A stretch of 50,817 bases of DNA from Bacteroidales bacterium. GTDB taxonomy: Bacteria > Bacteroidota > Bacteroidia > Bacteroidales > WCHB1-69. The notes below the pieces were generated by a model. That model saw only the letters and a program-made list of their open reading frames with translations, did no database searches and was not told the DNA's origin. A program made the translations under genes and the position numbers. The DNA is taken from positions 1 to 50,817 of the forward strand of contig JAFZWE010000012.1 in assembly GCA_017617445.1 (NCBI GenBank), given 5' to 3'. Shown here in pieces: positions 25,250-28,067 of this stretch (position 1 is the stretch's first letter; each line of letters starts with the position of its first letter).

Positions 25250-25275
25250 AAAAAAGTCCGGCAGGATGCCGGACT
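25250..25275 (-). terminator. pyrB terminator
   Basis: On the minus strand AGTCCGGC (25275-25268) pairs with GCCGGACT (25262-25255) over a 5-base loop, followed by a run of T to 25250. It closes the pyrB transcript just before the hexosaminidase promoter. Confidence 0.85.
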
Positions 25276-25296: not shown

Positions 25297-26379
25297 TTAT
25301 TCTTTGGTTTTGCTGTCGCAATAGTAGCAGCGGATGGGGCCATTGACCGTTTGGCGGAAGAGGTGCGGCACTTTTTCGGCATTGCTGATGCACTTGGCAT
25401 TGGCGCAGAACAGGGTGCTGTCCTCCATGGTTTCGAAATGGATGGGCGTATCGTGTTCGGGGTCGTTCTTCCATTCCAGCAATTTGCAAATCAAAGCCAT
25501 GCGGACAAATTTTCCGTTTTCCACCTGGCGGAAGTAGGCGGCACGCGGGTCGGAGTCCACTTCGGGCAGGATTTCGTTGACACGCGGCAGCGGGTGCAGC
25601 ACGGCCATGTCACGTTTGGCTAATTTCATCTTTTCACGGTCAAGCACGAAGCTGTCTTTCACACGGTCAAATTCGTCTTCATCAAGGAAACGCTCTTTTT
25701 GAACGCGGGTCATGTAGAGCACATCCAGCTGTGACATCACCTCTTCCATGGAGCTAACCTCTTTGTATTCAATGCCGCGGCGTTCGCAAACATCGTGGCG
25801 AATGTATCCGGGCAGACGCAGTTCGTTGGGAGCGATGAGAATCACTTTCACATTGGAACGTGCAGAAAGGGATTTGATGAGGGAGTGAACGGTACGGCCG
25901 AACTTCAAGTCGCCGCAGAAACCGATGGTGAAGTTGTCCAGACGGCCCAGCTCGCGGGTGATGGTGAGCAGGTCGGTGAGGGTCTGTGTCGGGTGGCTGT
26001 GACTGCCGTCGCCGGCGTTGATGATCGGCACTCCCGATACTTTTGAAGCGGCCAGCGGAGCTCCTTCAATGAAGTGGCGCATGGCAATCAGGTCGGCAAA
26101 GCAGCTGACAGTCTTGGCGGTATCCTGCACGGATTCCCCCTTGGCTGTGGAGGAACTGGCGGCTTCGGAAAAGCCTAAAACATTGCCTCCCAGCTCCATC
26201 ATGGCAGCGGTAAAACTCAAACGGGTACGGGTACTCGGTTCGTAAAACAGCGTGGCAAGCTTCTTGCCTTTGCAGTGTTCCGCATACTTCTTGGGATTGG
26301 CGATGATGTCAAGGGCCAACTCAATGATTTCATCGGTTTCGGCAACCGAAATGTCCATGGGATCAATAAGATGTTTCAT
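25297..26379 (-). CDS. pyrB: Aspartate carbamoyltransferase catalytic chain with a PyrI-type zinc tail
   Basis: 360 residues, about 50 longer than a normal catalytic chain. It condenses carbamoyl phosphate and aspartate to N-carbamoylaspartate, the committed step of pyrimidine synthesis. Catalytic motifs: STRTR (49-53), SSSTAKGES (75-83), HPTQ (129-132), [13 protein letters not shown], and [10 protein letters not shown] (261-270). The extra C-terminus (about 322-360) has four cysteines, C325-X4-C330-X20-C351-X2-C354, in [14 protein letters not shown] and IRCYYCDSK. That is the spacing and sequence pattern of the zinc domain of the regulatory chain PyrI (C-X4-C-X23-C-X2-C in E. coli), without PyrI's nucleotide-binding half. 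No separate pyrI is in the window. It is expressed alone, from a promoter 150 bases upstream across a leader with a terminator. Confidence 0.95.
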
Positions 26380-26413
26380 AATATGGTTGTTTTTTTTGTT
26401 GATAATTCCAAAT

Positions 26414-26441
26414 AAAAAAAACGGCTTTCAAATGAAAGCCG
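26414..26441 (-). terminator. Terminator in the pyrB leader (putative attenuator)
   Basis: Perfect 8-bp stem CGGCTTTC/GAAAGCCG (26441-26434 and 26429-26422) with a 4-base loop, followed by eight T residues (26421-26414). It points leftward and lies 35 bases before the pyrB ATG, downstream of a promoter and a short open frame. Confidence 0.85.
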
Positions 26442-26448
26442 CCAATAT

Positions 26449-26526
26449 TCAAAAAATAAAAAATTCAATTTTTTCGCAAGTTTTTGTTGCGGGATGTAAA
26501 ATCAACTCTCTTCTGTCCTTTTTCAT
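26449..26526 (-). CDS. Putative 25-residue leader peptide of pyrB
   Basis: ATG at 26526, TGA at 26451-26449. The product starts MKKDRRELILHP and ends IEFFIF. The last four sense codons, TTT TTT ATT TTT, make a 13-nt U-rich tract in the mRNA, and the stop codon lies 7 bases before the terminator stem, so a ribosome at or near the stop would cover the stem's left arm. This is the arrangement expected for UTP-sensed attenuation as in enterobacterial pyrBI. The peptide itself need have no function. No alternative explanation for the U-rich tract is apparent, but a 25-codon frame can arise by chance. Confidence 0.55.
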   Translation of the reverse strand: MKKDRRELILHPATKTCEKIEFFIF

Positions 26527-26534
26527 AACGGCGG

Positions 26535-26542
26535 CAAAAATA
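26535..26542 (-). promoter_or_regulatory. Promoter -7 box of the pyrB leader
   Basis: Minus-strand TATTTTTG, with predicted transcription start near 26531, only about 5 bases before the leader ATG. No clear -33 TTTG. Between the terminator and pyrB the best alternative is TTTATTTG, one base off the consensus. Confidence 0.55.
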
Positions 26543-26617: not shown

Positions 26618-27412
26618 TTATTTGATTCCCCAAAACTTAAGGTCGCACTCAGCTTCAACTTCCGCTTCTGCGTCTTGGGGAAGGCCGGGAAATAGGTTCC
26701 GTTGGATGATTTCTTCGACTTGGTCAATGCTTTGGGCGCATTTTTTCAGTGACTGTGTGGCAGGAGTATTCTGCATGATCAGCCCGATGGCGTGGTAGCG
26801 CCCATCCTTGTTTACCAGAAATGCTTTGAAGAAGGCATCGGGCACGCTTACCTTGTGGTCTCCAATGTCTCCATGTTTGTATTCTGAAAAAACAGGTCCG
26901 CAAACCACATAAACTGTCCCGAATTCCTTGGCCAGTCGGCGAGCCATCTTCTCAGTGGCCAGCCAGGATTTGCTGCGGAAACTTTTGTCTTGCGGCGCAA
27001 TATTGGAAAAATAGTAGGTGGCGTCCCACGCTTCTTCGTCCCAATTCATGTCTTCCGGCGGAACTAACTGTCCCTTGATCCATTTGCTTTTTTTGTAGTC
27101 TGCAGCATCCGCCTGCCGCCCTTTGATTTGTGGATCTGAACAGAAATCCGCTTTGCGCTTCTCTTTGCTCCCCAACTTTTCCTGCGTCAGTTCGTAAGCC
27201 ACCCAATTGGGAACCAGTAGGGCGTGGTTATAGGATACTGTAAAACCGGGTTGTCGGAGGATCAACTCTCCAACCTCGTATTCAGGAATCTCTATGGGTT
27301 GTGCGAGTGGAGCCATGGATGTATCCGCCTGTTTTTTGCTTTTGCAACTTGTGCCAAAAACAAGCAGAAAGATGAGGGTGATGATGAGGGGATAATTTGT
27401 TTTTTTTCTCAT
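26618..27412 (-). CDS. DNA/RNA non-specific endonuclease-like lipoprotein, active site degenerate
   Basis: 264 residues. The N-terminus MRKKTNYPLIITLIFLLVFGTSC carries a lipobox (Cys23). The rest follows the beta-beta-alpha-metal nuclease family (NucA/endonuclease G): VSYNHALLVPNWVAYEL, the active-site region KGQLVPPEDM, TYYFSNIAPQ, and the helix WLATEKMARRLAKEFG then VYVVCGPVF. The DRGH motif reads I-K-G-Q, so the general-base histidine is Gln115, and the metal-ligand asparagine position holds Arg146; the helix Glu154 and Arg158 remain. By comparison with NucA (H124, N155, E163, R167, from memory) catalysis should be lost. It may be a binding protein. It is last in a leftward run, 22 bases after the LRR gene. 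Confidence 0.8.
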   Translation of the reverse strand: MRKKTNYPLIITLIFLLVFGTSCKSKKQADTSMAPLAQPIEIPEYEVGELILRQPGFTVSYNHALLVPNWVAYELTQEKLGSKEKRKADFCSDPQIKGRQADAADYKKSKWIKGQLVPPEDMNWDEEAWDATYYFSNIAPQDKSFRSKSWLATEKMARRLAKEFGTVYVVCGPVFSEYKHGDIGDHKVSVPDAFFKAFLVNKDGRYHAIGLIMQNTPATQSLKKCAQSIDQVEEIIQRNLFPGLPQDAEAEVEAECDLKFWGIK

Positions 27413-27434: not shown

Positions 27435-28067
27435 TCATTTTCCACGGGTGCTGTGGCAATCACAGGTGGAAGTCACTTCAATTTTGGTGTTTGGAAGCAG
27501 TTGTTCCATTTTTTCAAGTTCCCAGTCTCTTAAATCAATTTGTCTTAAATCTATGGTTTTTAATGTGTTTTCAAGTTCTGATATGCTTTCGGGCAAGGTG
27601 TAAAGAGGATTTTCCCATGCATCGATGTAGGTCAGTTGGTGCAAATGAGAGATGGTTTCCGGGAGTTCTTCAATCAGGTTGCGACTGATGATGAGGGTGC
27701 GCAGATGGGTGAGTTGCCCGATGCTGGCGGGCAGCCGTACGAGATGGTTACCCGATAGATTCAGGTAGGTAAGGTTGGAAAGCGTCCCTATTCGCTGATT
27801 CAATACATTCAGTTTGCATCTGGCTGCAGTCAGTTCTTGCAAGTTATAAAGTTGAAAAATCTCCTCGGGCAGGGAATCCGATTTGATTTTCAATTTCAAG
27901 CGATAGACCTCTCCGGGAACAGCCAGGGCCTCTTCCAAAGAGGTGAACACACGCTTTTGTTGGAGCTCCGCATCAGGAATAGGCTGGGAGGCCACAGACC
28001 ATACGCCTCCCCATAGGAGATGGACTCCGAGGAGTATTAAAAAAATGCGAATGGTCTTTTTTATCAT
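27435..28067 (-). CDS. Leucine-rich repeat protein, exported
   Basis: 210 residues. The signal peptide MIKKTIRIFLILLGVHLLWGGVWSVA is followed by about five leucine-rich repeats of the 23-residue bacterial type (from about 68 to 185): LYNLQELTAARCKLNVL, LSNLTYLNLSGNHLVRLPASI, LTHLRTLIISRNLIEELPETI and LHQLTYIDAWENPLYTLPESI. Such proteins are binding scaffolds, and no partner is indicated. The C-terminus is a short Cys-containing tail (STCDCHST). It sits between the alcohol dehydrogenase (18 bases) and the degenerate nuclease (22 bases), so the three are probably one transcript. Confidence 0.85.
   Translation of the reverse strand: MIKKTIRIFLILLGVHLLWGGVWSVASQPIPDAELQQKRVFTSLEEALAVPGEVYRLKLKIKSDSLPEEIFQLYNLQELTAARCKLNVLNQRIGTLSNLTYLNLSGNHLVRLPASIGQLTHLRTLIISRNLIEELPETISHLHQLTYIDAWENPLYTLPESISELENTLKTIDLRQIDLRDWELEKMEQLLPNTKIEVTSTCDCHSTRGK

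Follow-up and report, generated by a model that had tools for sequence, protein, structure and literature searches.

A conserved leader upstream of pyrB in a Bacteroidales bacterium and its probable role as a pyrBI-like, UTP-sensing attenuator

Organization of the pyrB Locus

The DNA analyzed (50,817 nucleotides, termed the window) carries pyrB on its minus strand, preceded by a short leader and, further upstream, by a nuclease gene (identity by Pfam) that ends at 26618 (Table 1). The leader begins with a box of the -7 type, from which the ATG at 26526 is separated by 8 nt (minus strand, read directly and by script), and the frame opened by this ATG closes with the codons TTT TTT ATT TTT and a TGA at 26451-26449. 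The U-tract at the end of the frame is 13 nt long (26463-26451), and the TGA lies 7 nt before a hairpin with a perfect stem of 8 bp which, as folded, has 10 pairs including two G-U (26443-26420). There are 17 T residues in the 30 nt before the hairpin of this leader, and 34 nt lie between the T8 run (26421-26414) and the pyrB ATG at 26379. The parts named in the original prediction (box, ATG, 25-codon frame, U-tract, TGA, hairpin, and U8), their order, and their coordinates are exact on re-reading. The terminator-like hairpin that follows pyrB suggests a transcript of this single gene.

Table 1. Features of the pyrB locus in window coordinates
Feature	Position	Strand	Basis
Promoter box, -7-type, TATTTTTG	26535..26542	-	Sequence; Bacteroidota consensus TAnnTTTG
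Leader open frame, 25 codons MKKDRRELILHPATKTCEKIEFFIF + TGA	26449..26526	-	Sequence, script
Weak candidate pause hairpin CGCAA-CAAAAAC-TTGCG	26475..26491	-	Centroid fold of leader
U-rich tract TTTTTTATTTTTT, proposed UTP-sensitive pause region	26451..26463	-	Sequence
Terminator hairpin (predicted), CGGCTTTC-ATTT-GAAAGCCG	26422..26441	-	Sequence, folding
U8 run 3' of hairpin, proposed termination point	26414..26421	-	Sequence
pyrB, aspartate carbamoyltransferase fused to PyrI-type zinc domain, 360 aa	25297..26379	-	Pfam PF02729, PF00185, PF02748
Terminator-like hairpin 3' of pyrB	25255..25275	-	Folding

Stability and Rarity of the Leader

Folding of the hairpin together with its tail gives -14.3 kcal/mol, a value that none of 200 shuffled sequences equals. 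The fold of the whole 151-nt leader barely exceeds its shuffles (z -1.44, 19/200 equally good), and within these 151 nt stability above that of shuffles is confined to the hairpin. The candidate pause hairpin is at the level of chance, with 36% of 300 shuffles folding as well. The 25 nt from 26467 to 26443 contain 16 T residues, a count reached by 0.18% of the 25-mers on the same strand. A rule-based scan for a box, an ATG 5-20 nt on, a frame of 8-60 codons, and a hairpin of at least 7 bp with T6 near the stop has one match on both strands of the 50.8-kb window, which is the pyrB leader, and none in 60 order-2 Markov simulations of the window; the arrangement is therefore not due to chance. 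No Rfam family has a match at its gathering score in the window.

Leaders of the Same Architecture in Congeners

Eight of the 12 congeners have a leader of the same architecture, placed before pyrC or pyrK and not, as in the window, before pyrB. It precedes pyrC in three of them (G001, G003, and G009) and pyrK in the other five (G002, G006, G007, G008, and G012); a DNA search with the window leader gave a match 4.4 kb upstream of pyrB in G001 and G009 and led to the leaders there. Directly before pyrB no leader is seen by eye in the 11 congeners that have this gene (148 nt upstream), nor in 80 named loci, nine of which are congener records. A hairpin scan extended to 2.5 kb upstream of pyrB in the same 80 loci finds T-run hairpins in two, neither of which is a leader, and is blind to the heads of pyrC and pyrK because these mostly lie further out. 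The expectation of conservation in relatives, which the original prediction had placed upstream of pyrB, thus holds for the frame, U-tract, and hairpin, all kept with changing sequence, and does not hold for the position, since the leader precedes pyrC or pyrK and never pyrB directly (0/11).

The congener pyrB lies late in a pyr gene cluster, with the leader further upstream. The genes pyrK-D-F-E-B are on one contig in eight congeners, and in six of these pyrC is upstream of pyrK on the same strand, closely spaced except in G007, where a few other genes intervene. Only the later part of the cluster is joined to pyrB in G002, G011, and G012, and G002 and G012 have two additional frames between pyrE and pyrB. 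PyrC, PyrK, and PyrB were located by protein search and pyrD in part by query P0003; congener pyrE was named by likeness to the own-genome pyrE found with TIGR00336, and the gene in the remaining position we take to be pyrF. A complete leader is missing in four of the 12 congeners: in G005 and G011 the box is followed by pyrC without a hairpin, G010 keeps the tract and hairpin without box plus frame and is near a contig end, and for G004 the protein search gave only distant PyrB and PyrK paralogues and no PyrC.

All nine leaders of the genus, that of the window included, place the ATG 8 nt from the box. The frame has 25 codons in seven of the nine and 23 in G012, and it is read through in G007, where the leader (locus L129) has an extra A after the U-tract compared with G002 that removes the stop, so that the frame crosses the hairpin and the pyrK start. 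Across the nine, 14-20 of the 30 nt before the hairpin are T residues. When the window leader and the three pyrC-type leaders are compared in pairs (six pairs), only 18-31 of the first 54 nt of the frame and 9-17 of the last 24 nt are identical. The sequence of the peptide thus drifts, whereas the length of the frame, its stop, the U-tract, and the hairpin are preserved. Two hairpin pairs are changed on both sides, CGGCTTTC/GAAAGCCG in the window compared with CGGCTTGA/TCAAGCCG in the pyrC-type leaders; these were read by eye because MAFFT misaligns the window hairpin.

The pyrK-type leaders have a distinct sequence and are 93% alike among their five members, so that five genomes weigh little more than two. 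A strong hairpin is placed just before their U-tract, with 0-0.3% of shuffles as stable, and one of its pairs is changed on both sides. In the pyrC-type leaders 24-99% of shuffles are as stable as the hairpin ahead of the U-tract (36% in the window), and only the pyrK-type leaders have a strong counterpart of the pause hairpin. What the sequences themselves show is the set of parts, the order in which these occur, and their conservation at congener pyr genes; the pyrB leader is almost certainly a real conserved regulatory leader.

Association of the Leader with Pyrimidine Genes

The pattern TTTTGCNGC-N3..8-ATG-N75..105-T8, run over 103 genomes of the family, has matches in 23, and the reversed pattern has four matches in all 103. 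In the 13 genomes of the genus the matches fall at 12 distinct places, which are the nine leaders, two tRNA-Lys genes, and one site inside a longer frame. A relaxed scan gave 21 distinct matches in ~0.99 million distinct bases, not a random sample because much of it was chosen around pyr genes; 15 matches are at pyr genes, and the other six are all in pattern-selected loci, five of them being tRNA genes. The leader accompanies pyrimidine genes and not the upstream neighbor.

This association bears on an alternative reading in which the hairpin only terminates the transcript of the nuclease gene and pyrB is transcribed from a separate promoter located after the hairpin. Terminators between co-directional genes are common, and among 80 pyrB upstream regions sampled across the order (described below) 28 show a hairpin and T-run within the final 420 nt, and by eye many of these hairpins directly follow the upstream gene and are succeeded by a leaderless pyrB. 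A degenerate box, TTTATTTG, is present at 26416-26409 and could serve such a promoter, but it is placed partly inside the U-run itself. A distance of 177 nt separates the hairpin from the nuclease gene, and the box and ATG lie upstream of the hairpin, in agreement with the original estimate of ~180 bp and a position downstream of a promoter. The hairpin accompanies pyr genes in nine genomes, before pyrC, pyrK, or pyrB, whereas nuclease homologues (36-47% identity, perhaps not orthologous) are on another contig than the leader or pyrB in all 10 congeners that have one. Termination of the nuclease transcript as the sole function of the hairpin is therefore quite unlikely.

Leaders beyond the Genus

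In other genera of the family one of 20 pyrB upstream regions (G055) has a similar leader, in which the box and the ATG are 17 nt apart and the stop codon falls within the hairpin; the other 19 have none by rule. No leader is seen by eye before pyrC in 19 loci of these genera, with the start alignment-placed and possibly off by some tens of bases. For pyrK none is seen by eye in 17 of 18 loci, and in the remaining one (L203) the match begins at residue 44.

Across the order, 354 of 384 genomes matched, and 80 pyrB upstream regions were taken from the listed best matches, three of the 80 being from the same family. A strict scan finds five pyrB leaders (L313, L344, L346, L361, and L362) in three other families and no such leader in the other 75 regions, with no match on the opposite strand and none in 10 x 80 simulated regions. 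The ATG is 7-8 nt from the box in L313, L361, and L362, and the frame runs through the hairpin as in Escherichia coli; in L344 and L346 the ATG is 16 nt from the box. The frames of the five end in or run through the terminator and are in this respect nearer to E. coli pyrL than the window leader is. Three further regions upstream of pyrB (L310, L343, and L364) have a short frame, a U-rich end, and a hairpin but do not satisfy the strict rule because of their box or the length of the stem, and are uncounted. The pattern search at the level of the order has matches in 51 of 393 genomes, and none of the 30 matches examined as loci by tblastn is beside pyrB, pyrC, pyrK, or pyrD.

Of the 20 regions upstream of pyrB in other genera of the family (L234-L252), 13 have a clear AGGAGG 4-14 nt before the start. 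Shine-Dalgarno sequences are described as generally absent in Bacteroidetes (PMC3155529), and these 13 regions argue against a blanket absence in the phylum.

Comparison with Known Attenuators

The window leader resembles that of E. coli pyrBI (pyrL) in having a short frame, a hairpin followed by a U-rich stretch, an intrinsic terminator, and pyrB as the next gene. The ATG is 85 nt from the terminator, compared with 88 nt in pyrL of E. coli K-12, and 35 nt from the upstream hairpin, compared with 32 nt; this hairpin is weak in the window leader, whereas a pause hairpin is known in E. coli pyrBI. The 30 nt before the terminator contain 12 T residues in E. coli, compared with 14-20 in the leaders of the genus. 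Substantial differences occur at the two ends of the frame. The box is 8 nt from the ATG in the window leader, whereas the -10 box is 25 nt away in E. coli, and the window frame of 25 codons stops 7 nt before the hairpin, whereas the 44 codons of pyrL run through the terminator. Another difference is the gene that follows, as the E. coli leader precedes pyrB and those of the congeners pyrC or pyrK. Attenuation of the pyrBI type is well known from E. coli, and its mechanism there is described in PMC10135430, PMC4824070, PMC3641672, and PMC5021804.

Amino acid attenuators such as those of trp and his, and the Flavobacterium psychrophilum candidates reported upstream of amino acid operons (PMC9723704), likewise combine a leader peptide and a terminator before biosynthetic genes. 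Sensing of charged tRNA by the leader peptide, for Phe or Ile in view of its TTT and ATT codons, has therefore to be considered in place of UTP sensing. The peptide ends are mostly rich in Phe (EFFIF, LNFLFI, LNFCFF, and FRFFIV), as such a sensor would have it, but the Phe number varies, with G003 ending in MIYLF and its one Phe. The controlled genes make pyrimidines, the window leader has a U-tract where amino acid attenuators have regulatory codons, and no antiterminator is predicted, there being no alternative to the hairpin in the minimum energy fold or in the centroid of the 151-nt leader. Sensing of charged tRNA is on this evidence very unlikely.

Attenuators of the Bacillus PyrR type also act before pyr genes; they require the PyrR protein, and a leader frame is unnecessary. 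In the window genome (~80% complete) no PyrR is found above the cut-off, profile NF003549 giving two matches of 22.8 and 21.9 bits against a cut-off of 138. Among the matches listed in one literature collection, none describes an attenuator of pyr genes, or one that senses UTP, in Bacteroidota; of these matches, the F. psychrophilum candidates and short frames in long 5' UTRs of Bacteroides thetaiotaomicron (PMC7366714) come nearest.

Proposed Mechanism

An attenuator of the pyrBI type is taken here as one in which read-through rises as UTP falls in a manner dependent on translation. Between the promoter and the first pyr gene an intrinsic terminator is present by sequence and fold, at which termination is predicted; a leader frame, predicted to be translated, is present between the promoter and this terminator, and a U-rich tract just before the terminator is present in all nine leaders of the genus. 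The frame of the window leader does not run through the terminator as that of E. coli pyrL does, and since this trait may belong to the definition of the pyrBI kind, we claim a likeness of mechanism to pyrBI and not strict membership. On these comparisons the best reading of the pyrB leader is a UTP-sensing, ribosome-coupled transcription attenuator of the pyrBI type, a reading that is probably correct. The original prediction of a UTP attenuator gains support from the leaders of like build at congener pyr genes.

In the following scheme we infer the start site, the pausing and termination of polymerase, its coupling to the ribosome, and the role of UTP as the signal. Polymerase would start near 26530, if the box is placed at -12 to -5 as reported for F. 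psychrophilum (PMC9723704), which would leave the leader AUG ~4 nt from the 5' end; in B. thetaiotaomicron, by contrast, ~3.7% of 5' UTRs are under 10 nt according to PMC7366714. An AUG so close to the 5' end would allow a ribosome to load at once, and the nearly leaderless start may in this way shorten the lag behind polymerase. When UTP is plentiful the U-tract would be crossed fast with polymerase ahead of the ribosome, the hairpin would fold, and termination near 26414 would give an RNA of about 117 nt. When UTP is scarce polymerase would dwell in the U-tract at the frame end and the ribosome would catch up. Once at the stop codon, which is 7 nt from the hairpin, the ribosome would, from usual ribosome footprints, cover the emerging 5' arm and permit read-through into pyrB.

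A conserved and translated leader could also have its read-through driven by another signal, such as a protein, a nucleotide other than UTP, or the overall rate of translation. Any change in the distance between ribosome and polymerase affects a coupled attenuator, and a near-leaderless start may be sensitive to initiation. The U-rich tract in all nine leaders and their location at pyr genes point instead to UTP, and a different signal is considered unlikely.

A wider proposal, put forward tentatively and with the balance tipped slightly against it, is a class of nearly leaderless, ribosome-coupled UTP-sensing attenuators in several Bacteroidales families. In such a class the module would be re-attached to whichever of pyrB, pyrC, and pyrK stands at the head of the pathway. 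It would work because the leader AUG ~4 nt from the 5' end loads a ribosome before polymerase is 100 nt away. If true, the class would be strong genetic evidence for tight coupling where Shine-Dalgarno starts are largely missing.

The UTP-sensing reading provides a concrete, testable case in which Bacteroidota may tune pyrimidine synthesis without a repressor, and it makes transcription-translation coupling in this phylum directly testable, since the switch works only if the ribosome trails polymerase closely. The near-leaderless start is a variation absent from E. coli pyrL. That sister species have the leader before different genes, pyrB, pyrC, or pyrK, suggests a way in which a regulatory module can outlast the break-up of an operon. 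Two points are additional to the original prediction, the near-leaderless start as a constant trait and the scattering of the pathway genes in the window species.

Pyrimidine Genes and Neighboring Features of the Window Genome

The window genome is an assembly of 2.07 Mb in 51 contigs, about 80% complete, and the junction of leader and pyrB is known from this one assembly. Its pyr genes are dispersed, with pyrC on contig C49, pyrK on C28, pyrE on C7, and pyrB on C29. Among these four genes inspected, the proposed attenuator is carried solely by pyrB, which encodes the first step of the pathway proper. pyrC follows close behind another frame without a leader. pyrD, pyrF, and the carbamoyl phosphate synthetase genes were covered by the pattern search alone, which in this genome matches only the pyrB leader and a tRNA. 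The window-species pyrK (L184) has the box TATTTTTG with its own ATG 8 nt on and no hairpin, so the gene itself looks nearly leaderless.

The C terminus of PyrB is the fused PyrI-type zinc domain (PF02748), and there is no Pfam match to the PyrI N-terminal allosteric domain in the protein; nucleotide feedback on PyrB may therefore differ, placing more weight on attenuation. Horizontal transfer of pyrB was considered and is not needed, as the protein is 97% identical to those of three congeners and the DNA just 86%. The best identities of the window-species PyrK and PyrC to congeners are 59 and 69%, respectively.

Upstream of the nuclease gene a leucine-rich-repeat protein is encoded at 27435-28067, to which only three records of a phage collection match at <60% identity. 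The segment 26520-26554 around the promoter box has many matching places in congeners and corresponds to a conserved extended -7 motif.
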